Source: Monosiga brevicollis MX1 (lineage: Eukaryota > Opisthokonta > Choanoflagellata > Craspedida > Salpingoecidae). From it: a DNA stretch of 30,534 bases. Location of the stretch: positions 424,941-455,474 of the forward strand of contig NW_001865059.1 of NCBI RefSeq assembly GCF_000002865.3. Direction: 5' to 3'. The translations under genes and the position numbers were made by a program. The notes beneath the pieces are model-generated. The model had not been told where the DNA came from and made no database searches. It worked only from the letters and a program-made list of their open reading frames with translations. Positions 3,001 to 30,400 of this stretch are shown here, in pieces (the first letter of the stretch is position 1; each line of letters starts with the position of its first letter).

Positions 3001-3255
3001 AGCAAGCCCGACCAAGTTCGCAAGTTTGCCCATGAGTTCATGAAGAACCGTGTGTCCGCCATGAGCGGCACCGTCGCCAAGGGCATTGTCAAGCCCAAGC
3101 CGCCCATGGACGACAGCTGGGAGCAGCAGGCCAAGGCTAAGAAGAAAACCAAGAAGAAAAAGCAGTTCCAGAAGCTTGACAACAGCCTGCTTGGCTACAA
3201 CGTGACGGCCGGCTCCGCCCCCAACCGTGGCGAGATTGACTTTGACTACAAGTAA
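1..3255 (+). CDS. GIGYF/PERQ-like GYF-domain protein (5' partial)
   Basis: Exons: <1-1800, 1954-2061, 2141-2200, 2316-2674, 2805-3255 (stop TAA); about 925 residues are visible and the frame is open at base 1. A GYF domain lies at visible residues ~102-160, with WVYLDD, the GPF core and a following M-x-x-W. Long Glu/Gln/Arg-rich coiled coils (~180-420), a Lys/Ala-rich low-complexity stretch and a Gln-rich helix follow. The C-terminal exon matches the conserved GIGYF tail: a helical block starting FLAWCKKELVK and a basic run leading into NSLLGYNV and GEIDFDYK. In animals GIGYF proteins bind Pro-rich ligands through the GYF domain and, with 4EHP, repress translation and support mRNA decay in the cytoplasm; that role is transferred from the family. 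The 4EHP-binding segment would be N-terminal, outside the window. All donors are GT and phases agree. Identity is strong because both ends of the protein match. Confidence 0.92.
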
Positions 3256-3548
3256 ATGCTGCTATGGCATGCTGTATGGCCGGTTGTGTGCAGATCAATC
3301 ATTCATTTCGGGACAAGTATCGATGGGCATGGTTCCACCATCCATCCTGTAAAGTTTGCCCTTTCCCTCCCCGCTGATTGGTGGCTGTGCGTGCTTCGTC
3401 ACGATACACGGTGGCGTCAATTATTCTTGATTCTCGACAAGAAGAGAGGCAGATCAAAGGTGACACAGAATTGAAATCAAATTCCAACTTTCTTTTCTTT
3501 TTGCATTCACTCTCTCCAACAGGAATGAGTTTAGAATGGCATGATGCC

Positions 3549-6500
3549 TCAAAACTCGCTTCCCTCTAATCGCAGGACAAAACGTGTCAGCTCTTCGGGA
3601 GCACCAGCACGCGGGGGTGCCACTCCCCCAACAAACACGTCATAGACACCTTCGGGATATTCAAGCTCGCCGTGGGCGTTCGCCAATTGCAGGGGGCTGA
3701 GCACAATCTCAAGCTTGATGCGCTCCTCCGCACTGGTCTTCAATTCACCTGTGGAACCCATCGGCGATCTCACAATGAGTTCTTATAACATTCATTCAGC
3801 ACGCCAAGATGGAAGGCATGAGCTTCAACAAACAAACCGGTTTTGGTAAAGGCCAGGAGCTGGCGCAAGGGGATCGAGGGATAGCGCTCTTGAAGAGCCG
3901 TGGTTTGGCGCAGACGAGCATACACTTGCACAACCTCCTTGCCGGCCCGTTTTCCGACATTGCGCACGGTCACCTCAAGCTTGAGTTGCGGCTTCAGGTT
4001 CTCGGTCAGGTTGAACGTGAGCGGTGCCATGGTAGCCGCCGCATATTCAAAGCGGGTGTAACTCAGGCCAAACCCAAAGTCGTGCAATGGGTCGTTTTGA
4101 AAGTATCTGCCAGCCAGGGAGCAACGTCCGCCAATTCAGATTGCAAGAGATCGGGCAGTCGACGGGAAAACCATCGAGTACGCAAACAAGTGAGAGCGGG
4201 GCCAGAGATATCGCCAAGTGATTGCGTACCGATACGTGCGTCCCGGGAAATCGGACATTGTCATGGACAAAATGTCAGGTAGGTCCTCGTCAGAAGGAGG
4301 TACGAGATATGGCAAGCGACCCGAAGGCGAAACCTTGCCAAATATGATATTCGAAACGGCCGTGCCTGCATGTTGGCCGCCATACCTATTGTCAACATCA
4401 CGTTTTAAGTGAGGGCAGCGGACCTGGAATTGGTGAAGCTGGCGGTTTCCAAGGAGTGCCCAGGGCCGTGCAGGGCGGTGCCTTTGCGCATATCCTACCA
4501 GGCTTCGAGCAATGCTGCAGAGCGCTCCGCTACGATGGGGCTGGCGACAGGGCCGCCATTGACATAAATGGTGATGACGCGCGTGTGAGCTGAGAAAATG
4601 CTCTCCGCCAGCTCTTTTTGAACGCCTGCCGTGCAAAGTAACCATGATCCGCCCAAGCATCAGATGAGGTTGGGCACTTTGTGGCCGACCAAGGCGCTGT
4701 CCGCATCTGAATCAAAGATATCGAGGTCAAGGCGGGAAGTACGGCGTATGATACCCGGAAGGCCGATAGATTCTCGGTCGTGGCCTTCGCATTCAGCGTT
4801 GTGGTAAGGCGTGTTGGCATGCTCCGTACACACGTGCAAGCCCAAGACCAGGAACACCACATCTGCTTGACGCGCCGCCTCAACGGCAGCCTGTGGATTT
4901 ACGAACACGCGAGTTATAAGTGGTGGGCCGCAAAATGAAGGGTTGCTACACGAACGCCATCTAAAGCATTTGCAGCACACCATCACATAGCACGGACCGG
5001 GATGCGTGATGTGTCGTTGCTTTCAATGTCGCAGCCCTCCTCAAAAGTGAACGTCACGTTGTTGGTGGCGAGCGTTGTGGACAGGCCTGCCACATGCCAG
5101 CACAAACTGAGTTTTGAACGATGTACCAAGCCAGCCGTGTTGCCAGAAAACGCCATGCCACATTGTTGCAGATTGGCACGCTCAAGGGGCACGCCCGTGT
5201 GATACCTTCGAGAATATTGACGAAACGGCATTGGGAAGAACCAGCGGGGACGTCGTTGCATGCAAAATAGTTTCCAAACAGGTCCTACACAAACCAGATA
5301 CAAGCAAGCGCCCGGACTCGTTAAAGAAGGTGAGCGGGCGAGAAGAGATAAATTACCAATCGCTTGCCTGCGTATCGTTGGCACTCGGACCGATGATTGC
5401 CACGTGCTTCAGCGAGGCCAGATCCAAGGGCAACACGTCTTGCGAGTTCTTGAGCAGCACGAGCGATTCCTACAAGGCACGTTCATGTTAATCGCAGCGC
5501 GACCTCAGGTGAGTTTGACTACAGGAACGCCGCCGCAGGCTGTATCGAAAAGGGCAGACACCACGCCCACCTCGGCCACGCGTAGATTGAGAGCCTGATG
5601 CACCGGTGAGGAGATGTTGCGCTCGTCATATGAGGAGAATGGCACGAGCTCATCCGGATCAAACTCGCCGGTGCGAAGACGAAAGGTGAAGAGCCGTTCT
5701 GCGGAGGTACGCAGGGCCTGTTCAGTGACAAGGCCATGCTCGTAGGCGTCGTGCAGCTCCAAGTAAGCCGGTCCAGAATTCAGGTCAACACCGGCGTTCA
5801 ATGCCGCTGCAGCGGCGTGAATCGTGTTGGTTGAGTAGTTTTGCTCCGAAACGAAGAAGACAATGGCGTCCGAGTCTGAAGTGAAGAATCCATCAAAGCC
5901 CCACTCATTGCGCACAATCAGATCCAGCATGGGACTGGCGCACATGGGATAGCCGTTGACACCATTGTAGCTGTGGGGCAGTGTGCGTGATGCAAGCGCC
6001 GACGTCATGGAAAGCGGTTTGCACACGTTGGTCGCACGTGCACGCAGACATGCGATCCAGCAGATGTGAACCGCCTTGTGAGTTGTAAGAATGACAAACC
6101 TGCACATCAAGCTAGTAGCGCGGCCCTCCTGCACCACGGCCTTGAAGGCAGGGAAATATGTTTGACGCAGATCCACCATGCTGATGGTTGGATCAAACGA
6201 CAAGCGTGGCGGCGTCTTGTCCAACGAGTATGCGACGAAATGCTAGCAGCCGCATGCAAAACACAGAGGCTGATGATCAGCAGATGTCGCCATGGCTCGG
6301 CCGCCTGCGAGCACTGTCAAACCTTGGGGGTGGCGCCCAAAGCGAGGTAGTCGGCGCTATCCGGCAACGTTTGTAGGCCTATGATCAGGCGGAAAGTTGC
6401 AGGCGCAATGGCCCGTTGTTGACACGACGATGAAAAAGGCATGCGATTGCCGGGAGCCACCGAGGGTGGGGCGATTTTTAAACGCATCGTGAGACATACC

Positions 6501-8347: not shown

Positions 8348-11300
8348 TTACTGCCGCAGGACCACGGGCAGGCTCGTGTTGGCGGGACGACTGTGGTAGT
8401 TGATGAGCTCGGAAAGGGTTTGGCACACAGGGCTGCCTGGAATATAGATACCTAATGGCGCCCGCAACCACAAGAACCCCCCAAATCATGACTCGTGATG
8501 GCCGAGTTGTCTCAATGGTGGCCTTCTGTATTTCACTGTGGACGCATCTTGACTGCCGACCCAATCACGTACCTTTTTTATGTTGCTGCAACACTGGAAA
8601 GTAGAGGAGCTCACGCGCCGTGCGAAGCACCAACGTCGCTACATGCACGGATGACATGCCTTGGGGTTGGGTTTGCAGATCGGGGTCGCGCACGATAAAA
8701 CTCCCCTCTGGTGAAAGTGCCAGCATGGCCTCATGATCGTGGGACGGCTGATGAATACGACACCAAGACTGGTTTTTGGCTTTGCCATCCAGCCATTTGG
8801 CCTCGGCAGAAGCCAGTGAAGGTTTCAGATCTGGTGCCGAGTACCGATGATACGATTGCAGCCGTGGGGCTAGCAACACCGGCTGCACTAATGCAGTGCC
8901 ATGGCTCGAGCGGCGCCGGCGCGCCGGCCGCGGTGCAGCCTGTCGCGGGACACGCACAACCCGTGCTGCGGGCCTGTTCTTCTTCAGTGCCAAACGCTGT
9001 GTACCCAGCTCAAAGTTGGACGCCCTTCGCGGCTCGCGTGGAGGCTCAACTCGTGCCGCGCTCTCATATAGGCTATGCGTGGAGCCAGTGTTCAAGGTGT
9101 TGAGTCGAGTCAGCGACGAACTCGTGCTGCTTGGCCCGCTGGTCAGCCCCTGCCGTGCGTGATTCAAGGTCTCGTAAGTGGATGAGGAAGGCACGCGGCC
9201 TCGAGGCTGGAGCACCACGCTGGCGAAGGGGGCCGGTGAGCTACGCGAGGACGAGTCGAAGAACGAGTCGGGCACAATGAGAGGCGAGATGAGAGGCGAA
9301 GACGGCTGGGCGTAATACTGCACAAGCTCCTCAAGACTGCGAAAGCGCAATCGCGGATCAGAGTCAAAGTGAATGCCAGGTCCATAGAGCGAGCCCGAGG
9401 GAACGACCACCAGCTCATCCCAGAAGCGGCCGAGGGCCTTGTAAGTGAGGGCAAAGCAGGCTGGATTGGACTCGCTGCGTCGAATGATAAAGGCACCGTC
9501 CGGACAGTGATCCAGCTCTTGAATGGCCGCGCTGCGTGGCTTGCCGGCCTGATACCAATACCAATCACTGACAGCCGGTATTTCCACCCGCTCGACACTG
9601 TTGGCAAAGGCGACGCTCCGTTCAATCCGCGCAGGGTCGGTTTTTGAACGCTTCTGAAAGAATGGATGGCGAGTGTTTTTGAGAATTGGCTTGATTTCGC
9701 GCACCGTGAGTGGTGCCTCGCCGGCTCCATTCGTTGTGCCGTGCAAAGAAGTGGAGCGCTGAATGTCACGCCCCCCTCCAGGCTGACCCGGGCCCACCAT
9801 GCTTGATCGACCCGCCGCTGAGGCGGTTCCGTGCATGGAGCTGCTCCGCCGGGCTGGATCAGCGCGCACGAACAACGATGGGGCTGAGACTGCCTTGATA
9901 TCCTGTAGGCGAGCCGGACGGTTGGTGGCCCGGGTAGGTAGGTCAGCCGGATCGTTGCTCTGGCTACGTGAACGGCGCCGAGCGCCGCGTCGCCGCGCCA
10001 TGGGCGAGTGTGGGGGCGTTGAAGTTGCCGTAGCCGGTGCAGAGTGCCCAGGCTCTGCGGCGAGCACGGCATTGCTGTCCGATCGTTCCCTTTCTTGGGA
10101 TGGGTGAGGCTCGAGCCGCTCGTCCGAAGGAGGCTGTAACAGGGGGCGCTGAGTTTGTTTTCGAGACACCGGCTGCTGCAAAACGTTGCTCACGCCCGGC
10201 GGCGTGAGCTGGACGGCTTCGAGACGCGCCGGCATGAGACAGTCGTTGCGGGCCAGCGGGCAGAGCAGCAGTTGTCGAGCCCGGCTTGAAGGCTGGGACA
10301 AGGTCTGGACAAGGCGTGACAAGGTCTTGTAGTGTTGGCTGCTCGCACGCACCACGCACACCGCTGGGCGGGGGCGACTACGAGAAGCGCTAAAAGCCAT
10401 GATGGATTCGGTCTCCAGCCGGCCGTGGACGACGTAGGTCAGAACAAAATACCCCAGCTGGGCGCCGTGTCGGATGAAAAAGGTGCCATCTGGGCACTTG
10501 CGCAACAAGGCCGTAGCGCGCTGCACTGCAAGGGGTGCCTCCAGCCACCAGCGAGCGCGCCAGCCCTCGGGGATCAGTGTGCTGAGGAGCTGTGGCATGT
10601 CCTGTGGAGACAGCTGCAGGGAGTGTTGGCCTCGATCCGAAAAGCCCAGATCAACAGACCCGCGCCGCGCGCGCTCATCCACCAAAGTAGTGAGATCCCC
10701 TGGCGTGTAGGTCAGCTTGACCGGCAGTTCCTCGGCGCGGGCGCGCAACTGCTCGAGGAGCGCGGCCAGCGATTCATGGTAATTCTCGTGACCGTGCAAG
10801 CAAATGCCCAGCGGGCTCATGTCAATCAGGGCAAAGCCGACTTGACCACCGTTCAGATAGACCACCTCACAGGGCTCACGTCCGGCATCGTCTGCACGAC
10901 GGGAAGTGACTTGGTGCAGGCGTGCGGCGGGGTCCTTGACCTCGAGATGCCAGGGCGGCCGCAGTCGCACAAAGTAGCAACCATCCCGTTCGTAGCGCAA
11001 GACGGCCTGACAGCTCTCCGTGTCCAGTTCGCCCACAAACCATGCTGGCGGGGAGTCGCCAGATCCGGTTTGCCGGTGAGAGGCATCGGCATCGAGCGTC
11101 AAGGAGTCGGCCAAGGCCGCGTGGTCAAAGGCACCCACTGAGAGGCACACATCTTCAGCCACGTCGGACAAGGGCAAGGGATGGTGGCGATAATATTCAA
11201 CCAAGACCGCAAGGCGACTGAAGGCGGGGCCATCTGCATAAAGACGAAGACCTTGGAATGCGACAAAGATGGGAAGCTGTTCGATGCGCTCTTCGGCCAC

Positions 11301-13066
11301 GGCCACGGTGAGAAGGAGGCGGCTACTACGGGCACCACTCGAGCCCGGTACAGTGATGCCAAAGGCACCACGCTGGGCTCGCTGGCGGACAAGATCTTGC
11401 ACCACGTGCCGCGACGCCTGATCGTTAAAGTAGTTGCCCCGAAGAGCCTCCTCGTCAATAAAGGGCACGTAAGAGGATTCGTCCGCTTGGGCCCCCTCGG
11501 CGGCCTGGAGCAGGGTTTTGGTATGCCGATTCGCTGATTGCAGACTATCAATGAGCAGATCGTGTTTGCGCTCGTGCTCTCCCAGGTTGTTGGGGTCGGT
11601 GGGCAGTGAGGCTCTGGGCCGGCTGACAAAGTCGGGATCCGTGTCCAGACGTCGACGACTAGCGCCATTCAATGGGGCTGGGGAGTGCCGGCCCACCTGT
11701 TGAGCGTTGAAGTTGTGACTGTTCTTGTTGTAGGTGGAGAGATCAGCAGTGTCAAAAGTGGTGCGTCGGGCGCGTGGGCCTTTGGAAACGGTGCTGTACA
11801 GCGCGTGCAGATCGCGGACCGATGGGGATGGGCTCGAGTCGGAGCTGCGGTTGATATCCTGATACGAATCGACGTCACCGCTTTCAACGCTGCTGTAGCG
11901 GGGACGCCGGCCACGTGATGAGTTGTCTTGAAGAACTTTGGCCTCGCCAGGGCGTTGGCTTTCTAGGCCGGGCGCCACCTCATGGATCTGGGCGTAGACC
12001 GGGTCAAAGTCCAGCATGTCACGAGAGTTTTGCGAAGGTTCCAAAGGGTTTGGTGCGTTATTGAGCAGGGGCGAACTTTGCGAGGCGTGCAGAACCGGCA
12101 CACGCTGCTGAGCGGCTACTATGGATACGCGCGGGCCGTGGTCGGGCGAGGATTGGACAACAATGCGCAACTGCTGGATGTTGTGCAGGAGCAGCCGCTG
12201 CTGGGATGGAGACTGGAAAGTGAGGGGGGGGGGGGGGGGGGGGGGAAAAAAAACCCCGAACCCCAGGAAAAATGACTTTTTGCCNNNNNNNNNNNNNNNN
12301 NNNNNNNNNNNNNNNNNNNNNNNNNNNNNNNNNNAGGAACACGGAACGCGAGGAAAAGTGACTTTGTGCATTGGCAGTGATACAAGGCACCGAGCCGGCT
12401 GGACGAGCACGTAACAAGCATGCCTTGAAAGAGCAAACCAACCTCGAGGCCCAGCCGCGTGAGGTCATCGGCGTGCAGCGCCAGCAGCCGATTACCATCG
12501 ATGCGATGCGCCTTGAAGGAGCGCTTGAGCTCGGACATGTGCACAGACTCGAGCCATCGACCCACGTCCCGCGTTGACCACTGTGATATATGTCATGAAA
12601 GGAGGGACAAGCATGCGAGTAAGGCATCGGCTTTGAGATCGTGCAAGCACGTTGACAGAGATATGGGTGCGCCGGCGCTGCCGCTTACGGTGACATGGGG
12701 TGTTTGCTATGATGGCAGACGAGATATAATTCAAGGGCCACATGGAAGCGGTCAGGGTGAGGCTGGGTTTGCATACGAGTGCCACTGGTGGGCATGCCGA
12801 GCATGAGCAAGGCTGAGGGGCACACACACCTTGTCTTGGGTGGAGATGCTTGCGGCTGAAGGCTGCGAGTAGCAAAGCGCATGCAGCCATGGAGGCGTGG
12901 TGAGATGAGCAGCAATGTGTGGTGCAATGTGCACCACAAACAACATCAAGCTAGATCATGGCATGTGTGTTACCTTGGCGGCGCCGGTGCGAGCCTCGGG
13001 ACTCTCGGGACGCGGCGGGGCAATGACGGCTGGCGAGGAATGGCGCGCTCGCCACCGCCGAAACAT
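8348..13066 (-). CDS. SAM domain plus five SH2 domains, adaptor-like protein
   Basis: Exons in sense order: 13066-12974, 12862-12830, 12580-12443, 12212-8573, 8451-8348 (TAA); about 1335 residues. The first two exons are less certain; the start is the first true ATG in the frame, with G at -3. A SAM domain (WSTRDVGRWLESV to the helix LLLHNIQQL, ~43-105) is split by the intron holding the assembly gap. SH2-like units lie near 340-450, 479-590, 636-730, 970-1068 and 1238-1335. Units 2-5 keep the phosphotyrosine-binding Arg (YFVRL, FFIRH, FIIRRS, FIVRD); unit 1 reads GAFGITVPG and lacks it. The last SH2 domain is finished by the final exon (YIPGSPVCQTLSELINYHSR). Linkers are basic and Ser/Pro-rich with many Tyr (YAQI, YSTV, YETL). 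No kinase domain is present, so a scaffold that binds phosphotyrosine proteins is inferred. Confidence 0.85.
12224..12245 (-). repeat. 22-base C homopolymer (sense strand) at a 3' splice site
   Basis: Read on the coding strand this is a C run ending 11 bases before the acceptor CAG of the fourth SAM/SH2 exon, so it forms most of that intron's polypyrimidine tract. Confidence 0.9.
12285..12334. other. Assembly gap (50 N)
   Basis: Fifty N lie inside the intron that splits the SAM domain. Fifty is a placeholder length. The gap follows a run of 22 G at 12224-12245 (C on the sense strand). The bases before and after the N are near-copies of each other, see findings. Confidence 0.98.
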
Positions 13067-14464: not shown

Positions 14465-17400
14465 ATGGATGGACGGCAGTGCTGGCATGCTTTCGATGGC
14501 AACGCAAGCGCTAGAGCGGGCATGCCGGCCGATGCGCGTCAGAATACCCTTGTATTGAAGCCACTTAACTCACCTGGCGCCCCTTACATGACCTTGCGTA
14601 GGGCGGGTGCTGCCGCGGTCGAGCCGCTGGATCCCCGCGACCCCTTGAACCGAATTCGCGAGCTGGTTCGTCTTGCAAGCAGCCGGAAGAAGAAAAAAAA
14701 AGTCGTCAACCCGTGGAACCTCACTCGTGCGCTCTGGTTTACCCCTGTCCTAGGAGCCGCAATATCGACAGCTGGTCATCGACCTCACGTCCTCCGTGGG
14801 AGCGGTAAGCTGCAACCGCTCACTTCACGTCTCCCATGCGGGAGATGGAAAAGAAGAATGCTCAACGCAGACCTGCACCTCCTCACGCGGGTTTCTTAAA
14901 TGACGATTCGCTTGCAGTATGCGCAAGCCATCAAGAATCCCAGTGCAGCTTTGCGCATGGATCATTTCCTGCACAATGACGGGCGCATCCAAGGCAATCT
15001 CCTCAAGATTTGTATGCATGGCATCATTTACCCCAAGCCTCTCTGGGGTGCAGGCCACAAGGCCGCCAGTAAAGCCTTTATCGCGGTTCTCAAAACTGTA
15101 CCTGCTCTTGCAGAACCTTTGTCTGAACCAAACCCATGCAAGGTCTGTGATGGGGCTGCTCTGCAACAGCCCAAGTTCACTTTGGCTCGCTCATCTCAGT
15201 CTCTCTCACCTTGTTGGAGCTTAGGCGTGTGCATCGCTGATGCTCCAAAAGTATGAAGTCCTGTCCCCGGTCTTCGCCGCCATTGAAGACTCGAGGGCCT
15301 ATTCACCCAAGGCCTTTTTAAAACAGCAAACTGCCCGTGAAATGATCCTGCACTGGCTCGTCGAAGGTACCTCTTCCCGTCCGTTTGGCTGACTGCTTGA
15401 CCTTCCCACGCCGACCTAGCAAGGGACGATCAACGGTGCTTGGCCTCACCTCCGCCCTGCTGGATGGCCCACAGTTGTTTTTTCCATGGCGGCGCACCGT
15501 CATGCCTTGGCACGAGTCACCGACCAGCCACCGACAGCCGCCCCGATTGACATGCCCGCTGTAGCTGAAATGCGCGACACGAGACTTCAGCCCCAACTCT
15601 CAGACGAACCCCTTTTCAATCGGCGTCGCGAGGACACCTTGCTGCCCGGCCAACCGCAACTACTCAAGCTCAAGAAGAAAGACAAGGGACGGAAGGCAAA
15701 GCGTTCTTCGGCCCCGCACCGCAAGCCAAAGGCTGACAGCGCCACCGCTAGTCCCTCCAGCCCAGCGCTGATTCATACCCCATTGTCTGAGCCTCAACCC
15801 GCAGCCTCAGCAACCACGCCTGCTTCAGAGGTGACCACAGTGGTGGCACCTGAGCAGACCTCATTGTTCTCATGCCCCGACAGCACAGCAATGCCCACCG
15901 ACGTGACAACCGATGAGAACTCGACAGCCGATGAGAACTTGACGGCAACCGAACCCAGTGTTGGCCATGTCGCCGCAGTCTCCGATTCAATTGTCCCGGC
16001 AGCCGCCGAGCTCCTCATGGATAACGTTCACAGTCTCAGTGCAGCACGAGATGATTCAGAGGTCGATCGAGATTCGCTGTGCCCGCCGTGCTCATTAATG
16101 TCGGCAGGACCCCCTGACAACATGGTTGCGTCTGATGCCATGGAACAAACCACACCTCGAGATGAGGCTCAGACTGTGGCTTCCGCTGAGGAGCCTGCCG
16201 AAACTTCCGAACATGCTCCCGAGGCTCTTGAAGGCCCTGAAGTACCGTACGAAGAGGAGCCCGTCGTAGCTTCCGAGGATCTTGCCAGCGCCGACACTTC
16301 TGTCCTGGAAGACAACAAAGTCGTTTCCGGTGCGCTCATTGACGAAGCTTTGACAGCCACCGAGCAAGACTCTGAAGTATTGGCACCGGAGGAGAAGTCG
16401 GATGCTCTATCAACTGCATTTGTTGCCATCACCAGCGAAGACCTGGAGCGCTTGACTGCTCGACAGCGGGAGGTCCAACAATGGGTTGAACAAAAAAACT
16501 TGGAGGTCAAGGTGAGATCGTTTACCCATTTGCCGTCCCTTTCTACGAAGGCTCGTGCACCCGACTACAACCTCACCTGCCCTGGACTCACACGCGCTTT
16601 GTTTGCTCGCTGGCTGCGCTGTTATACCCATGTTTAGACGATTGTCGTTGTCGAGAACCAGCGGCGTCGTCCTTTATGCACCGTTTACAGCTCGAAGCAT
16701 CTTGTTTTTCACGATCCGCCACCGTTTGCAACGATCCAAGGTTTATTTTGTGGTCAATCCCTTTCTGAGGTCTGTCTTGAAACAATTGTTGTTTGTTGCA
16801 CGCGACAAGAGATGCTATCGTTGAGCTTGAAGTCGTCAGCGTTGGTGTGACCCACCCTCATTTCGCGATTCGCTTGGGTGTGTGAAAGGTGGCGCCTGAC
16901 TTGCACTATGAGTGGTGCGATGACTGGAAGGTGGACTATACACATGCTGCCGTCGATGATGAGGTTGGTACGAATAGTATGGCCGTGATTATTTAGACCG
17001 ACCTCATCGCTCCCCCGGAACTGTGCAGGGCTGGCAATACAGCTACTCTTTCCGCGGGGACTTTGTCGATCAACGCACATACATGCGTTTTGTCCGCACC
17101 CGCCGCTGGAAGCGCCAGTGTGCGCGCACAGGCAAGGCTTCCTGTCCAACCGCTCCAGGCTGGCACCGAGCTTGTTCCATTTGTTTTTGTTTTGCTTTGT
17201 TTCGTTTTGTTTTTATTTGTTTTTTGTTTTCGTCACGATTATTGAACGACGGGCACTCCTTTGCTTACAAGATGCATCACCCCTTTGGGCGCCAAATTTG
17301 ACTCAAAAATAGGCGAGGGGGAGATGGCTATGCGCTCGCATAGCCTGTCTCGGACATTGTTCACCACTCACGTCGTGGAAACCTTGACTGATGCGTTCAA

Positions 17401-19198
17401 CTCTGTATTCCAATATCTGCTGGATCTGCCAGCCACACTCGAGAAGTACGAGCTCTATAACCCTCGCCACGGCACCTATCTTAACGGCCAGGCTGTCATG
17501 GATGCTGGCGTGGCTGATGCTATGACTCCGGCACATTTGGATGCGGAACTACTGGCCTTCTTACATGAAAACAACGACTCAAACTCAGAGCCAAATTCAG
17601 AGCCTTCAGGTAGGCAGCGGCGCCACGCTTCTTGCCTGTGCATGAATGAGTGATGATGACTTGTAAAATGGCGCGCCACTCCTAGTCCATCGCACCGTGT
17701 CCTTTGGCGTGGATGACCATGAGAACGAGGCAGAGGACGAGATGTTTTGCGACATTGACATCGACGTACTGTGTAAATGGGCCGACGCTCAAGTGCCCCA
17801 CCTAGCCAAGTCGCTGCTCCATGTCAAGGTATTCGGGCCCGTAGCCCTGTCGCAACCGTTGCCAGGCCGCCAGCGGTTGCTCATGGGGCGTCAATGTAAT
17901 TTGTGCAGGACGAAAAGCAGCTCGATTTTGAGGCAGTGAATCAACTGTTGGAAGCCCAAGACCGACGCTGCGCTGCCTGTCGCAACGACATTGTGGCCAC
18001 CGACAATGATTGGCAGCAATCTGCCCAAGTGTGCTTTTTTACTGGGCGCATTTATTGTCATGTGTGCCAGCGTGGCAACCGGGAGGTAAATTGGCTGACA
18101 CCAACCCAGCTTGCAATCAGACTTGCCAACGCCCCATCGTTATTTTGCCAAGCCATCCACTCACAAAGTTGCTGGCGTGCCTTGCCGATATCGTCTCCAC
18201 CTTCAAGATCATTCCGGCACGTGCGATCAATCTCTGTGACTTCACTTCGTTACCCGTGTCCGACAAAGCTGCTGCCGCTCTGGGCTTGCTCCAAATGGTT
18301 TGTGCTCTTCCTCGCTGATATGGGAAGATTCTGGGTTTATGACTCTCTTTTTTTTTTTTTTTTTTTTTGCTGAAGGAGGCTGCTGACATCATTGTGGGCT
18401 TGGTTTTCTTCACAGAAAAAGTTCTACGACGTAGATGACATCAACAAATCGCCTGGTCTGAAAGAACTCAACTCTGTGCAGGTCGGGGTCGCGTCTATTC
18501 TGCTTTGTGTCTAGTTTGTTGCTTTTAGGTTTATTTTTGGGTTTCGTTTGGAATTTTTTTGGCTTTTTGCTCAGCGTCGTCCGCATGTGGTCTTTGATGG
18601 TATCATATAGTTGCCAGAGTGGATTCTTCAACAATTGGCCCAATCCAAAGAAAAGATGCTGCCAGCCTTGGAAGAATGTGTACGCCTACGCAAACAGCTC
18701 TACGACCTTCTTGACCAGGTGAGCACGCAACTCGGAAATGAAACAGCCGACGCACTTGTTTCTCTAAGGTTTTGTAGGCGCATTTGGGTAGCTGCCCAAA
18801 AGCATGGTCTCAGTTGAGGTTGATTGGTGTGTCGATGGCTGCACCGATTCAAAACAGCTCATCTCCTACTCCCAACAGGCAAAATCAAAGGGGCAACTGA
18901 TCAAGGCGCAAGACGAACTCGCGCATGACCGTGCTTTTTATGGCCATGAGTACCTCTTTGACCTTGAAAAAAAGCCTAGTTGCTTTACTTTGAGCGATTT
19001 TGCGGAGCTTGGCAAGGCCCAGTCAGCCCAACACAGCAATCTCATGCATTTGTTGCGGAGTGCAAATGCCAAGGTAAACACAGTCTATGCAGACTCTGGC
19101 TTTTGTTTGCATGCTTGTTTTACGCTTCTCATCTTCGTTTTCAACCCTTTTGCGCTTGTTTTGAACGGCAGATCCAGGCTTGGATGCCCTCTCCGTGA
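14465..19198 (+). CDS. RUN - dysferlin (DysF) - Rubicon-homology domain protein
   Basis: Exons: 14465-14665, 14754-14804, 14918-15142, 15225-15366, 15424-16511, 16638-16769, 16889-16963, 17029-17119, 17313-17609, 17686-17828, 17909-18085, 18208-18297, 18416-18481, 18611-18718, 18879-19073, 19172-19198; about 1035 residues, all phases consistent. A RUN domain (~65-220) shows QLVIDLTSSVGA, LLKICMHGIIYPK and YSPKAFLKQQTAREMIL. A long acidic Ser/Thr/Glu linker follows (~240-555), then a DysF region (~570-670): VVENQRRRP, DDWKVDY, DDEGWQYSYSF and FVRTRRWKR. The RH domain (~815-1030) has CAAC, CFFTGRIYCHVCQ and IIPARAINLCDF. RUN domains bind small GTPases, RH domains bind Rab7, and the DysF domain of TECPR1 binds sphingomyelin, so endolysosomal or autophagy work is inferred. 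ATG 14522 has a better -3 base and is an alternative start. Exon 8 could instead end at 17131 with a GC donor, same phase. The usual last RH zinc cluster is absent. Confidence 0.83.
18348..18368 (+). repeat. 21-base T homopolymer in an intron
   Basis: It lies in the intron 18298-18415 of the RUN/DysF/RH gene, 47 bp before the acceptor CAG. Confidence 0.9.
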
Positions 19199-19309
19199 GT
19201 GAGTTGACCAATCATGGGAGCCTCGAGTTGTCACGGATGAATTGTTGCGCTGCGCGCACTGGCTCTTTTACCTTGTTGTTGGTAGCATGTTAATCAATCG
19301 AGTTTTTCT

Positions 19310-21628
19310 TCATGTGTTTCCAGGCCTCAAAGCCTGGGCCTTCAGCTTGATGACGCCTGATTTGGCAATATGTTTCACTGATAGCGTCGTCGCGTCCATA
19401 CCCAGGGCTTTGGCATCTAGCACTAGGGGGCTGCGCGTGCTCAAAGTTCCTGGTGCTTGAGATTTGACGGTTATAGATATATACTGCTCGTTGTCCACAT
19501 GAACCTCAACGGGCAAACCATCGGTGTCCACGCGCACAATGAGGGCGTCGTCGCTTTTTTGCACGCGATGGGACCAGGCTGTCGGAGTGTGCCCCGGACT
19601 GTCCGATGCGCTTTCGATAGGGCTGCCAACCGGGGCGGACACGGGTGTGGCTTCGTCGCGGCCGCTGTCAGACGTCATACCCAAATCTGCGGTGGTGGAT
19701 GCTGCTGCCGTAGTCGCGGCAGTCATGGCTGGCTTATTATGAGACGCGCCGCCTGTGGCAGCGGCAGCAATGACGTCACTGGCCATTGGCTCGTCTCTTG
19801 GGCTGTTCACCTGATTTTTCGCAGGAACCATCTGGGCCTGTGCCTGAGTGGCCTCGAACTTTTCAATCTCACGTCGAATTCGCTCTTCTTCAATCTGTTC
19901 TCACAACCATCATAAAAGCAGGCATTATTTCAAGAAAGTGAGGCCCAGGCCGTCTGTTGTATGAATACGCGCGCACTGGCCCATGCGATCGTTTGAGGGT
20001 AGGGCAAGAAGCCATGGGAGCGGGAATGACGGCTTGATTGGCGATGGATTTGTGGGACACGACATATGGTACCTGTTGATCCAACTCAAACGCTGTGCCG
20101 GCCGAAGCTTCGGCCTCTGCGCGTTCATCAGCATCATAGAACCAATGCGTGGCAGCAAACCTTGGCACGTTTGTTGGTAGCACCTCATGAGGTACGCGGC
20201 GGTCCGAAAAAAATATGACCATGGTGTTGGCTCGAGGAGGGATGGTGACGGCCTGCTCCACACTACCAGAGGGAGTGGGAGATGCCGAGGCTTCCGTCTC
20301 ATCGTCACTATCTGCGGGGGCTGCAGCGTGTTGATGTTCGTCCGGGGTCACAAAGAGGCGCACTTCACCACCATCCCCGGGTTGCCACTCTTCGTTGAGA
20401 TAAAAGAGGACGGTAAGCTTGCGGCCATTACGGTGCGGGTTGTCGCAGTGGCGAATGTAGCGGGTGCTGTTGCCGGGATAGCAAGTAATCATGGCTTCGG
20501 AACGCGACTCGATTCGCTGAAGCTCGGGTACGAACGCGGCAATGAGCTGCACGAGCGTGTTCATGCGACTGGTGAAGGCGCGGAGACCGGATCCCTGCCA
20601 GCAGCGTGGTTGACTACGGTCGGCTTGAGCGCTTTCTGTTGTGGGCGTGGGATCGGAAGCCGTCTCTTCTGTGATGGCGAGTTCAGCGCGCCCAGAACTT
20701 GAATCGTGACAGGGATCCTGATTGAACCATCCAACCTAAAAGCGTGCCGCAGTTCAAGCGAAGGAAGCAGGGGCAATTAGTCCTGAGCATTCCTTCGGGC
20801 CATGATGGCATGCCACACGGCAGTGCGTCACGTGTGTGGTAGAATTTTTGTCGGCTTGCAGGGCTAATCACAAACCTGATCACCGCGAACATGCCCGAGG
20901 ACATATTTGGTGTTTGCACCCGCTCGTCCACCTGCCAGCTGCCCCGGCTTGAGGTTGCCGTCACGGTGAGCAGATTTGACCTGCGGCCACGTGACCGAGG
21001 GAGCGTTAATGCGAATGAGCACCAGATGTACACCAGGGAAAAGGAAAGTGCTCAACCGACTGCACACCTCGTGAATGAATTGGCGCAGCACATGATCATC
21101 AAGGACGCGGTCAACAACAACGTAGTGCTGGCGTTGGAGCGTCAGCGCTAGGCCGTGGGCGTATTCCGCTACGTCAGGAGCTTCTGTCAGGAGCTGGGAG
21201 ACGTGGGCGTAGCGAGGACTAGTCGGCAACAAAGGCAAAATTTAAAAAAAAAAAAAAAAAAGTTGTTTGTGTGGTGGATGGTGCGTGTGCCAACTAGCGG
21301 GATGAGGGGCCGGGAGCTCAGTGGGGGAAGTGCGCACACACTTGGTACTGTCCAAGGCCAGGTCGTGTTGCCAGTGGGGCTGCTGCTTTGCTGCAGCGGC
21401 AGCAGCGGCAGCAGAGGAGGCCACGGGTGCTGGCTGAGTGCCTTGAAAGGCTTGTGCAATTTCAGTCAGCGCTGCAGCCATTTCTTCAACACAGCCCAGT
21501 TGTTGCCCCAGCTCCACGCACTGCAAGCCCCGACGCGAGCCAATTCGCACCGGGGGTGAGCACGCGATAGGTTTTCCATCGTGTTGTCTGGGAGCCCTAA
21601 TCGAGAGGATTTTTGCAGCCATGGACAT
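19310..21628 (-). CDS. EGLN/PHD-type prolyl 4-hydroxylase (Fe(II)/2-oxoglutarate dioxygenase)
   Basis: Exons in sense order: 21628-21342, 21218-21068, 20980-20876, 20735-20073, 19894-19310 (TGA); 596 residues. The catalytic core begins near HYVVVDRVLDDHV, reads RGDQVGWF across an intron, and has EAMITCYPGNSTRYIRHCDNP with the iron ligands His ~277 and Asp ~279. FFSDRRVPHEV gives the distal His ~364, and RFAATHWFYDADERA gives the 2-oxoglutarate-binding Arg ~373. This matches HIF prolyl hydroxylases (EGLN/PHD) closely. Animal PHDs mark HIF-alpha for degradation in oxygen, while the Dictyostelium relative PhyA hydroxylates Skp1; which substrate applies here is not visible. An acidic Ser/Asp/Glu insert sits inside the fold (~318-342). 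The first ~95 residues are Ala/Gln-rich and show no MYND finger. The last exon adds a ~195-residue extension: a charged helix, an Ala/Thr-rich spacer and a beta-rich segment I cannot assign. Confidence 0.9.
21244..21261 (-). repeat. 18-base T homopolymer (sense strand) in an intron
   Basis: Eighteen A on the plus strand are T in the sense of the hydroxylase gene, inside intron 21219-21341 and about 25 bp before its acceptor. Confidence 0.9.
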
Positions 21629-21779
21629 GAACGTACTCGCTTTAACGCAGTATCCGGTGTTGATGATTTCGGCTGTGTCAGCGCCCTCTCGACCCCATCG
21701 AGTGCTTTTTTAAGCGCCTTGCGGTGTCGCTGGACCGATCAAGAGGTAGATCCAACGATGAGCCAAACACTCACTGCCA

Positions 21780-21808
21780 CGCACGCACACGCACACACAC
21801 ACACACAT
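21780..21808. repeat. CA microsatellite
   Basis: An imperfect (CA)n tract with CG interruptions, about 150 bp upstream of the hydroxylase start codon. Confidence 0.85.
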
Positions 21809-21959
21809 ATGTACACCACATGCATGCCAATCCCTCATCCAGGAGTGCGATCGTGACGGCCCAGCCCACCCTGACCTCGCCCCCAAGACCCACCTGACCA
21901 CACGCCTTGATCAAGGCACTCCGTGCCTCGCGCCCCTCGCCCATTCTCCTTGCCAGCAG

Positions 21960-21961
<2 letters not shown>

Positions 21962-22019
<58 letters not shown>
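21962..22019. repeat. (GA)29 microsatellite
   Basis: A perfect 58-base GA repeat. A CT-rich tract at 22121-22154 is its complement, so the two form an inverted pair about 100 bp apart. Confidence 0.95.
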
Positions 22020-22022
<3 letters not shown>

Positions 22023-22120
22023 CGAGAGAGAAGAAAGAGAATAATGTCAGACCAATACATGTCAGACAAATCTATTGTCAGCATGTACCTGCAATGCATG
22101 CCTGCTTGCATACAATGGCT

Positions 22121-22154
22121 CTTCTTCTCTCTCTGACTCTCTCTCTCTCTCTCT
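22121..22154. repeat. CT-rich microsatellite
   Basis: Imperfect CT repeats, complementary to the GA run at 21962-22019. Confidence 0.85.
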
Positions 22155-22660
22155 TGTTGCCGATGCTGGTGAATCATGCTGTGACTCTTCTCACAAAACA
22201 AACCGAGCAGTGTGCATTGCAAGTGGCACACCCTGACACCCTGTTGCTACTTGTCGCTGTCACCAGATGCCCAGCCGTCCCCGTGCAACGTCGCAAAGAG
22301 CCTGGATCTGTTCTTGATAGATTAGCCCTCCTTTTCCATGGCCACTTCCCTCTTCCCTTTCTCCACTTGCCTCTGCCTGTCCAGAACATGAACCATAGAG
22401 CAAACGCCACGTCGGCGAGACTTGTCCGAGACCTTGATTAGAGTGTGCGCCCAACCTTGCCTTGCTCGCCAGCCTCTCTCTTCTTCCTGTGCTTCTTCTT
22501 TCTCGGCTCCCTTCCTCCGTCTGACCATCCGAGCTGCGACCAAGGTACGCGTCAGATTTGCATGACTTTCAAGTGGCCATGCCTGCACAAGTTGTCCATG
22601 TGACAGGCCTTGCACTCAATCCCACTGTACCACTTCACCGACGCGCACAAACACGCCAGA

Positions 22661-24177
22661 ATGGCTTTGCCAAAGCGTCGCCTCTCGACTGTTTCGCAGC
22701 TCTTCTCCGCGGCCGACCTCCATGAGGATCAAATTTTAGATTGCAATGCCCTGGCAGCGCTGCTCGTTCAGACAGGCACAGCCAATGCTGCGGTCAGTCC
22801 GCTGTACCAACGGCCCCTCTTCATCTGTCGCTACCCAGTTCTCCCAGCTCAACAACTTGCCCTGGTGCACTTGCCGCCCATCCTTTGGACCCATTCCATG
22901 GCATGAATTGTAGAATGCAGTCGACTTGGCAGCGGAAATTTTGGCCGACCTCGACGTCACACACCAGGGGCATGTGTCTGCGCGAGACTTTCTGAACAGC
23001 GCCGCTCAAAACTTGCCCCACATGGTCTCCGCGGTACGAACGCCCGCCCTCCCAAACACCTTGTCCACCTCGCCACCCCGGGCCCCTCCCCTTCCGCCTG
23101 CCTCGATGTAAATCTCAGCATACCTCGCAGCGCTCCTCTCGTCGCAGCTCGGCCACAAGGGGCGAGGCGCGTTCGACCTTTTTGTCAAGAGCCGACAGCG
23201 AATCGAGCACTTCTGCTCATGCTCGCCTTTTTAGCCGCCGCTCCAGTCATGGTCTGCTGCCCCCCGCCCCCCAACCGGATGCACCTCCAGAAGTGCACGC
23301 CATGGACTTTGATAAGCGACGGGTATGTCTTGAAAACACGCTGGCACCTACCTGCGCACCATCTCTTTTGTTTGCTACTTTATCGCCATCATCCCACGAT
23401 CTACCTTCGGGATCATCCCGTCTAACCCCGGCATCCCAACTCTTCCACGATCCTAGGCCATGTGGGAGATTTTTCTGCAAGCAGCGCATGAATCTCAGCC
23501 CAATCGCATCAGTCGTGCTGACATATATCGCCTCATCAACGACCATAGCCTGCTTGCTGCTTATGGTCTCAGCCCTTCCCAGACCAAGCATTTTGAGTTT
23601 GCCCCAATCGCCGTTGATGATATCTTTGCTCAGCTTGGCAAAAGGTGAGCCCTGCAACGAATCGTCATTGCCCTTCCTAACATTGCCCTCACCCGGCCCT
23701 TGCTTTCCGCTCCTCGGGACGGTCTGTTGCAGTGAAGAGGCAGATCTCGACTTTGATTGCTTCTGTGCCGCCTTTGCATCCCACTTTACCGTTCACGGCA
23801 ACGTGGTCTCGCCCGATCTGCTGGTTCGCGCGGAAATTCGAGCCCTTGTCAGCGCCAATTCCTCCCTTCAAGACCAAGTCTTGGACATGCGGAAGGACCT
23901 GGAACAGATTGCACATCAGGCTGAAACTCGAGAACTCGCTATTCGAGAGCAAACTGATCACCTCGAGGATACATATTCACAAGATGTCGAGGATTTGCAA
24001 AAGGAAAACCAAGTCCTCCGCTCAGAGAATGCGCGTTTGCGCCAGGTCTTAAAGGGTGCTGTTGCTTCCAGTGCCGCTCTTGACCAAGACATGAAGAACT
24101 ATAATCACCGCCTATCCACCCTGCACGTGAGTCAAGCTTGGTCATCGCCTGATCACCCTTTATTCCATGCTCGTTGT

Positions 24178-27487: not shown

Positions 27488-30400
27488 CTAGGCAAAGCCA
27501 AGGTCAGCGCAAGTGCACTTGTGTGTTACCGAATCGCAGGCGTTGTCGAGGGCAATGTAGCAGTCAGTAACACCAGCAGCATTGACCAAGCCATCCACGT
27601 GGGCCAATTGGCTGTTGCCAAAGATGTACACAGTATTAAGTTGAGTCAGCGAAGAGAGTGCATCAATCTCGGTCAAAAGTGGGTTGTTGGTGATGAGCAA
27701 AAAGTCAACGCTGGTGAGGCCTTCTGTGCCAGCAAAGGTCGTCAATGCATTGTTGGACTGGACCGCCAGCTGGCCCCCGACAGAGGTAAGCCCACCCAGG
27801 CCGGTCAAACTCGTCAACATGGCATTGCTTTGAACTGTCATGTCCCCGCCGACGCTGGAGAGCAGGTCCAGACCGCTCAGATTCTTCAGAACAGAGTTGC
27901 CGCGGATGGTAAGTCCAAAGTCAACAGTTGTTAAAACGTCAGGCCCGTCCATCGTCTCCAAGTTGGTGCTGCCGCGAATCTCGAGCGATTGAACTTGACC
28001 CACGGTCGTCATGGAGGCAAGAGAAGACTCATCCACATCACAGGTATAGCCTGAGTAGCCGTTGGAAAAGGCAACGAAACCATCAATGTGGTAACGGCCG
28101 GCAATGGTCGCAGCAGCTTCGCTGAGTTGTGTGCTAGACCGACACAGGACATCACCGGTGTACGTCGGGTTGAGAGTGGTGGTTGAGGTGGTCGACGTGC
28201 TGGTCGTTGAGGTCGTCGAGGTTGTTGAGGTCGTTGAGGTCGTTGAAGTGCTCGTGGTAAACTCTGCAAGCCCAATGCTACCGCAGGTACATCCAACGCA
28301 GGCAGGATTGTTGGCGATCATGCAAGTTCCGGTAATGACCACACCGTTGAGCGCGGCAATTGACTCAAGATTCTGGTTATTGGTGATCTTCAAGTCGCCA
28401 TCAATGACCAAACGAGTTGCATCCAAGCCACTCAGATTGGTAAGCCCAGCCATGTCGGAGATGGTGAGAGTTTGAGTGCTGCTGAGCGCTGCGAGGGGCT
28501 CAAGACTGGTGATGCTCGGCTGGCCGTTGAGAGTCATGTAGCTCCCGACGTGCTTCAAATCTTGGAAGTACGAAAACACTGTGTCGGTCATTTCGCAGCC
28601 TGAAACAAGGCGCACGTAGCTGTCAATCACCTCAACATTCGTAACCAGGTACTGCACGGCGGGATGAGATGCAGGGTCGTTGCAAAATACTGGACCAGCG
28701 CGGGCCAACAGACTCGTAGTAGTTGTGCTCGTTGTCGTGGTGGAAGTGGTGCTCGTGGATGTGGTCGTGGTGACGGTTGTGGTGGTGGTAGGATCGGACA
28801 AGCCGATGCTGGCGCAGTCACAAGAGCCAACACAAGAAGGAAGAGTAGCAGGATCAATCAAGCATTGACCGTTAACTGTGATACCGTTCAAAGCCGCAAG
28901 AGAAGTCAACAATGGAAGGCCACTGATAGTCAAATCTCCAGTCACAGTGAGCATACTTCCGTTGAAGCCGTCCAGTGTCTCAAGGCTGTTCATTGACTCG
29001 ATGCTGAATGAACCAGCAATGTACTCAAGGCTTTCAAAGCCGCTGAAGTTTGACACAAGGTGGTTACGATCAAAGCTAACGTCACCCAGGACATCTCGAA
29101 GGTCGTGGAACTCGGCCAGAAAGCTTGGTGTAGCCTTGCAACCAGAAGTGATTGACAAAAAGCCATCCAGGATGTACATGCCGGGAATAACAGATCGGAG
29201 TGCATCTTGATTGGTGGGGTGGTAACAAATGATGTCCAGGTCAACGCGGGTGGACGTTCGGCTGGTAGACGATGTCGAGGAAGTCGAGGAGGTCGAGGAG
29301 GTCGAGGAGGTTGATGAGGTTGATGAGGTCGAGGAGGTCGAGGAGGTCGACGTAAACGTAGTAGTGGTGGGCTCAGCAGTGGTCGTGGTGGGCTCAGCAG
29401 TGGTAGTGGTGGTGGGCTCAGCAGTAGTGGTAGTGGTGGTAGGCTCAGCAGTAGTGGTGGTGGTAGGCTCAGCAGTAGTAGTGGTGGGCTCAGCAGTGGT
29501 GGTCGTGGTGGGCGCCACAGTAGTAGTGGTAGGCTCAGCAGTAGTAGTGGTAGTGGGCGCCACAGTAGTAGTGGTGGGCTCAGCAGTAGTGGTCGTGGTG
29601 GGCGCCACAGTAGTAGTGGTAGGCTCAGCAGTGGTGGTCGTGGTGGGCTCAGCAGTGGTGGTCGTGGGCTCAGCAGTGGTAGTGGTGGTGGGCTCAGCAG
29701 TAGTGGTAGTGGTGGTAGGCTCAGCAGTAGTGGTGGTGGTAGGCTCAGCAGTGGTGGTGGTGGTGGGCTCAGCAGTGGTGGTCGTGGTGGGCGCCACAGT
29801 AGTAGTGGTAGGCTCAGCAGTAGTGTGGTAGTGGGCGCACAGTAGTAGTGGTGCTCAGCAGTGGTGGTCGTGGTGGGCGCCACAGTAGTAGTGGTGGGCT
29901 CAGCAGTAGTGGTCGTGGGCTCAGCAGTCGTAGTGGTGGTGGGCGCCACAGTAGTAGTGGTGGGCTCAGCAGTAGTGGTGGTGGGCTCAGCAGTGGTGGT
30001 CGTGGTGGGCGCCACAGTAGTAGTGGTGGGCTCAGCAGTAGTGGTGGTGGGCTCAGCAGTCGTGGTGGTGGTGGGCTCAGCAGTAGTGGTCGTGGTGGGC
30101 TCAGCAGTAGTAGTGGTGGTGGGCGCCACAGTAGTAGTGGTAGGCTCAGCAGTGGTGGTCGTGGTGGGCTCAGCAGTGGTGGTCGTGGGCTCAGCAGTGG
30201 TAGTCGTGGTGGGCGCCACAGTAGTAGTGGTAGGCTCAGCAGTGGTGGTGGTGGTAGGCTCAGCAGTGGTGGTGGTGGTAGGCTCAGCAGTGGTGGTCGT
30301 GGTGGGCTCAGCAGTGGTGGTCGTGGTGGGCGCCACAGTAGTAGTGGTGGGCTCAGCAGTAGTAGTGGTAGGCTCAGCAGTGGTGGTCGTAGTGGGCTCA

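Follow-up and report, generated by a model that had tools for sequence, protein, structure and literature searches.

A DysF domain joined to a shortened Rubicon homology domain in a predicted protein of Monosiga brevicollis

The window analysed here is the whole stretch of 30,534 nucleotides of the Monosiga brevicollis MX1 genome at C36:424941-455474, in an assembly of 39.47 Mb and 57 contigs. From three-frame translations we assembled a gene model of 16 exons at 14465-19198, which encodes a protein of 1028 residues with no internal stop. All 15 introns are of the GT-AG type, measure 65 to 160 bases each and keep consistent phases, so that the phase-consistent 16-exon gene described in an earlier note on this DNA was borne out, with the qualification that the splice sites were picked by eye, using homology and frame, and the phase agreement is therefore partly a matter of construction. 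A partly independent check was provided by codon usage, trained on a pair of open frames from the C54 locus, which favoured the chosen frame in 12 of the 16 exons and failed for exons 3, 6, 8 and 16. Two of the exons that failed this check, 6 and 8, belong to the DysF domain. The exons of the model are as follows.

14465..14665, + strand: exon 1, N-terminal region; the putative start is the first ATG to follow an in-frame stop; codon usage favours this frame
14754..14804, + strand: exon 2, where the RUN-like region begins; exon model
14918..15142, + strand: exon 3, RUN-like region (LLKICMHGIIY), by eye and weak profile evidence only; codon frame not best
15225..15366, + strand: exon 4, RUN-like region (AYSPKAFLKQQTAREMILHWLVE); the alignment to the RUN profile falls here
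15475..16511, + strand: exon 5, end of the RUN-like region, then a linker of ~330 residues with no Pfam match
16638..16769, + strand: exon 6, first part of DysF (VENQRRRP); Pfam and 8p5p match; codon frame not best
16889..16963, + strand: exon 7, middle of DysF (HYEWCDDWKVDY); Pfam and 8p5p match
17029..17117, + strand: exon 8, last part of DysF (GWQYSYSF, RTRRWKR); Pfam and 8p5p match; codon frame not best
17272..17609, + strand: exon 9, between DysF and RH; no family match above cut-off
17686..17828, + strand: exon 10, between DysF and RH; exon model
17909..18085, + strand: exon 11, RH, first cysteine cluster; PF13901 and Rubicon match
18208..18297, + strand: exon 12, RH (IPARAINLCDF); PF13901 and pairwise comparison
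18416..18481, + strand: exon 13, RH (VDDINKS); PF13901 and pairwise comparison
18620..18718, + strand: exon 14, RH; the Rubicon 6wcw match stops in this exon
18879..19073, + strand: exon 15, tentative; the Pfam RH stretch enters its start, ending at residue 984; no significant pairwise homology
19172..19198, + strand: exon 16, tentative terminal exon; codon frame not best

The DysF domain spans residues 553-650 and is encoded by exons 6, 7 and 8. A scan of the whole protein with PF06398 (Pex24p), a peroxin family that we take to be the Pex23/Pex30 group, gave 28.5 bits over residues 525-650 (curated cut-off 26.8, E 1e-6), and a scan of the 100-residue DysF piece gave 29.1 bits. Likeness to the peroxin family is confined to the C-terminal part of its profile, since the best stretch covers positions 205-358 of 358 only. 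The margin over the cut-off in the whole protein is modest, at 1.7 bits. Among solved structures, the closest DysF was the N-terminal domain of TECPR1 (8p5p, E 1.4e-5); the DysF domains of dysferlin and myoferlin were found at E 0.63 and 0.69, ranking behind unrelated chance matches to GID4 (0.31 to 0.42). The DysF region that had been proposed around the motifs ENQR, GWQYSYSF and RTRRWKR is thus upheld. Other Pfam matches in the whole-protein scan (Endonuclease_7, tRNA_bind_3 and Cadherin_3) fell under their cut-offs at chance level and were not used, and the scan showed neither a tectonin nor a PH family, a difference from TECPR1.

The Rubicon homology (RH) domain lies further downstream. 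PF13901 matched residues 852-984 well above its cut-off (46.1 versus 28.1 bits, E 6.8e-12), and Rubicon (6wcw) was the closest solved RH domain (residues 827-955, E 4.8e-7). Pairwise comparison of the first part of the domain gave scores of 115 with Rubicon and 91 with the RH domain of the C54 gene, and neither score was reached by any of 1000 shuffles. The RH zinc domain claimed in the earlier note therefore stands as a family assignment, but the domain is incomplete, as the match covers positions 2-125 of the 206 in the profile, or up to 127 when the fragment was scanned alone.

We also asked whether the two domains belong to one product. Without splicing, the DysF frame crosses a T-rich tract and runs into a stop that ends at 17301, and the first ATG in the frame of exon 9 is at 17324, 22 bases past it. 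It is therefore implausible that DysF and RH belong to separate genes, and the presence of both domains in one product is well supported.

Alignment with the Rubicon and C54 RH domains showed which parts of the domain are present. Cysteines occupy the positions of Rubicon C721, C724, C739, C747 and C750, and are not kept at C749, C817 and C826; from C881 onward a single cysteine aligns (C884), within a stretch that has no supported homology. The WDF motif of Rubicon reads CDF. The predicted protein resembles Rubicon (RUBCN) in the first cysteine cluster, in the IPxR and DIN motifs, in the position of the RH domain near the C-terminus behind a long linker and, possibly, in an N-terminal RUN domain, and differs from it in having a DysF domain, in lacking the later RH cysteine clusters and in that its RUN domain is not confirmed. 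As predicted from the sequence, then, the RH domain is truncated, with the first cysteine cluster retained and the later clusters absent, in a model whose 3' end is tentative. Complete RH domains do exist in the same genome, since that of C54 covers profile positions 2-205 of 206 (E 1.6e-59). The C54 gene, presumably PLEKHM-like, shares the RH domain with the window gene, and RUN matches precede that domain on its strand in C54, but the C54 gene differs in its complete RH domain and C1-like stretch (under cut-off) and in showing no significant DysF signal.

The missing part of the domain bears on Rab7. Excerpts of PMC8102471 name Rubicon M822, T825, N821 and K887 as Rab7 contacts, and excerpts of PMC11090050 equate the basic triad of Pacer with Rubicon N821, T911 and K916. 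Because five of these six residues fall on gaps, and K887 lies opposite a Leu where the alignment is uncertain, canonical Rab7 binding by the window RH domain would not be expected.

A shortened domain of this kind could also mark a degenerating gene, in which the C-terminal part has been lost, WDF has changed to CDF and the RH domain persists as a remnant with no function of its own. The limited coverage of PF13901 and the absence of cysteines past the first cluster are consistent with such decay, as is the failure to see a second copy in the genome. The search for further copies, with a query that left out the first 67 residues of the protein, ~325 linker residues and the final 8, yielded 15 matches, of which 14 were the locus itself and the other was the C54 RH gene at 24.6 bits, and hence no second copy was seen. 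However, the chosen exons are open, their splice dinucleotides are intact and the first RH cysteine cluster is fully retained, and we regard degeneration as unlikely.

The N-terminal region was more difficult to assign. The earlier note had reported a RUN domain here, which the databases did not confirm: Pfam gave no match to RUN (PF02759) in the whole protein at E up to 1, nor in four shorter pieces at E up to 10, where the sole match, at chance level and not used, was to a transposase family that stayed below its cut-off (best E 0.034), and a PDB search with the RUN-like region returned no chain at E up to 10. As a positive control, the C54 RUN domain, roughly joined, scored 57.3 bits in the Pfam scan of the pieces. 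A weak signal was obtained with custom profiles only. The profile, which combined the C54 RUN domain with four RUN domains of solved structure, two of which are partial, scored 7.3 bits over only 25 aligned residues of the window protein, a score that none of 1000 shuffles reached and that was unchanged when a Rubicon RUN sequence was added to the profile. In a natural null of 689 open frames and their 689 reversed counterparts (1378), which omits 11 loci around RUN matches (L009-L018, L020) and includes frames of the window gene and some duplicates from overlapping loci, one frame scored higher. This frame, on C52, contains the RUN-like motif RCRAWIR and is followed downstream by an RH match; a rough join of the C52 RUN-like region had no Pfam match at 0.01. 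Profile comparison by hhalign gave the window a probability of 6.7% (P 0.0054, 25 aligned residues). Pairwise scores of the N-terminal region, in SD over 500 shuffles, were 2.6 with FYCO1, 2.4 with Rubicon, 2.05 with PLEKHM1, 1.4 with R6IP1, 1.3 with C54 RUN and -0.3 with RUFY3, whereas genuine RUN pairs gave 10.1 (Rubicon and RUFY3), 12.6 (C54 and RUFY3) and 3.2 (C54 and Rubicon), all above the best score of the window. Mostly because the genome has two further loci where RUN or RUN-like exons precede an RH domain on the same strand, we consider a divergent RUN domain in the N-terminal region somewhat more likely than its absence.

The same arrangement at these two places argues against a reading in which the model joins two adjacent genes, a RUN-like gene that ends at a stop at 15392 and a DysF-RH gene that starts at an ATG at 15486. 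Unspliced read-through of exon 4 does end in HWLVEGTSSRPFG-stop, exon 5 has an early ATG, and the genome is possibly compact, with an open frame on the opposite strand ending at 19310, ~110 bases from the end of the model. Two genes would, however, leave 93 bases (15392 to 15486) for both a 3' end and a promoter, and the spliced version of exons 4 and 5 is phase-consistent and GT-AG. We therefore find two genes quite unlikely, although a split between the RUN-like region and the linker is harder to dismiss than one between DysF and RH. The match to RUN is so weak that it does not discriminate between one gene and two.

We then compared the DysF domain with that of TECPR1 at the level of single residues, in a two-sequence alignment with 8p5p in which 29 of 91 residues are identical; a check of the 8p5p numbering (27 residue numbers tried) found the letters to fit at all 25 that lie inside the aligned stretch. 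According to excerpts of Boyle et al., 2023 (PMC10476172), the fold of the TECPR1 DysF domain is held by eight Trp/Arg residues, and mutating any of 12 listed residues abolished recruitment to damaged vacuoles. Six of seven residues of the Trp/Arg stacking core are identical in the window protein, W116 being replaced by Tyr, and the eighth, R167, lies outside the aligned stretch. Only R76 is identical among the 12 residues for sphingomyelin recruitment; the substitutions are W77 to R, C84 to S, L88 to V, L89 to F, S90 to H, I142 to Y, D143 to S, K152 to R, K153 to T, W154 to Y and C157 to F. Since the core is kept and the recruitment residues are not, the fold is likely intact and the TECPR1-type sphingomyelin site is thus likely not retained.

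Other DysF domains bind other lipids. Excerpts of PMC12101078 report that the DysF domains of Pex30, Pex31 and human dysferlin bind phosphatidic acid liposomes and that, by simulation, Pex30 contacts phosphatidic acid through aromatic and basic residues at one tip. Because the corresponding tip of the window DysF domain is basic and aromatic (RRR at 561-563, Y627, R637, Y639 and F642), our preferred guess, which is based on the two-sequence alignment, is that an anionic lipid such as phosphatidic acid would be a more likely ligand than sphingomyelin.

These residues also speak to the function that the earlier note had inferred, namely damage sensing with a link to Rab7. On that view, a single chain would use its DysF domain to recognise sphingomyelin exposed on damaged endolysosomes and its RH domain to pass the signal on to Rab7 traffic or LC3 lipidation. 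A sensor of this kind would fit with the sphingomyelin-binding N-terminal domain of TECPR1 and the RH domain of Rubicon being the closest solved relatives, and with a tip that keeps R76 and carries conservative changes at K152 and W154. The rest of the sphingomyelin site is altered, however, with W77 to R, D143 to S and C157 to F among the changes, and the RH domain has no C-terminal part: the named Rab7-contact residues are unaligned, and the stretch that holds K887, T911 and K916 in Rubicon is lacking. The residues do not support such a sensor, and we hold it to be very doubtful.

The 3' end of the model is uncertain, because exon 16 is outside the best codon frame and neither exon 15 nor exon 16 had supported homology in pairwise comparison with RH sequences (for exon 15, the score was reached by 66 of 1000 shuffles with C54, 758 with Rubicon and 580 with C53). 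A missed 3' exon or a local assembly error, with a complete RH domain in the true protein, is nevertheless highly improbable despite this weak support, as a + strand pattern scan of 17000-24000 found no later RH cysteine cluster (one match lay in intron 8, with strays at 22350 and 22578) and the open frames from 19310 onward, among them one that carries an oxygenase domain, are on the other strand.

The RH and DysF exons of the window were missing from the results of the genome-wide family scans, so that the silence of these scans elsewhere means little; the RUN scan listed no match in the window. No DysF relatives were found in viral contigs or in prokaryote genome contigs, where 18 and 41 pattern matches, respectively, were unsupported by tblastn. 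The FerI family had no match in the genome, its control being likewise unmatched anywhere, and around a tectonin-type match on C54 there was no DysF among the matches listed for the surrounding 9.9 kb.

The RH domains of Rubicon and PLEKHM1 are recognised Rab7 binders, and DysF domains are coming to be seen as readers of lipids. Since the DysF core residues are kept, the sphingomyelin site is probably lost, the tip is basic and aromatic and the Rab7-contact residues are unaligned, the reading that we prefer, tentatively and at a little short of an even chance, is that the gene encodes one endomembrane adaptor of ~1000 residues, a member of the RH family that would be addressed by DysF-lipid binding, with no canonical Rab7 binding, behind a probable divergent RUN-like region. 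Such a protein would carry, in a single chain, a TECPR1/peroxin-type DysF domain and the N-terminal portion of an RH domain, and may act as a peripheral adaptor of the Rubicon/PLEKHM kind. Its membrane address would come from the DysF finger binding a lipid, anionic rather than sphingomyelin, the lipid, membrane and partners all being putative, and the shortened RH domain could serve as a protein-binding or structural module that has lost the known mode of Rab7 binding. It is a more speculative and somewhat unlikely extension that a Rubicon-type regulator gave up the Rab7-reading part of RH and gained a lipid-reading DysF finger, becoming an adaptor addressed by lipid state and not by a GTPase.

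In line with the earlier note, which knew of no described protein with all three domains, we found no description of DysF combined with RUN or RH in one protein in the excerpts of the literature searched. The families themselves are known; the combination of DysF with RH, and the half RH domain, look new. The unusual pairing of DysF with a shortened RH domain hints at a lipid-steered regulator of membrane traffic. A protein that carries DysF and only the first RH part would let the role of that part be asked about in a setting without Rab7, and would offer a natural test of whether lipid recognition can replace GTPase recognition in the RH family.

Three frames on the minus strand lie in the window alongside the DysF-RH gene:

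Window 8565-12464, minus strand: open frame of 1299 aa with an SH2 domain (55.3 bits)
Window 19893-20735, minus strand: open frame with a 2OG-Fe(II) oxygenase domain (PF13640, 73.3 bits)
Window 27491-29854, minus strand: frame in which Thr-rich repeats occur together with a match to the receptor L domain (38.4 bits; cut-off 21.8)

The oxygenase frame faces the DysF-RH gene and presumably resembles HIF-type prolyl hydroxylases. The SH2 frame includes a run of N, and its score covers the scanned part (8568-11900); more SH2-like stretches were seen in it by eye.

Matches to RUN, RH, DysF or tectonin domains were found at four other loci in the assembly (G000):

C54, 1613500-1620500 (L020): RUN matches, a C1-like stretch and a complete RH domain
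C52, 151500-158500 (L022), minus strand: RUN-like exon with the motif RCRAWIR, and an RH match (50.1 bits)
C54, 1196364-1196447 (L024): tectonin-propeller repeat match (21.5 bits; cut-off 21)
C38, 583500-592500 (L027), at about 1600-4440 within the locus: DysF-like gene end, found with a home-made DysF profile

In L020, the RUN matches are followed downstream by the C1-like stretch (24.2 bits, below the cut-off of 26.5) and the RH domain (E 1.6e-59), an arrangement that we take to resemble PLEKHM-type proteins. The RUN-like exon in L022 starts about 1.9 kb upstream of the RH match, and this order suggests that C52 holds a further RUN-RH gene. When the region was roughly joined, Pfam gave no match at 0.01.

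The tectonin-type match in L024 falls inside a 525-aa open frame, and DysF was absent among the matches listed for the surrounding 9.9 kb. A second DysF-like gene end in the genome was seen in L027, where the frames carry EGYEWTSDWSL and GGWSYTRNF...VRRRMWSR (E 0.0079 and 1.1e-5, respectively). Roughly joined, these two DysF exons matched no Pfam family at 0.01. The VPS13 C-terminal domain (PF25037, 25.7 bits; cut-off 21) is present in a frame upstream of them, and it is possible that VPS13 and DysF domains are combined in one predicted protein through putative joining exons.
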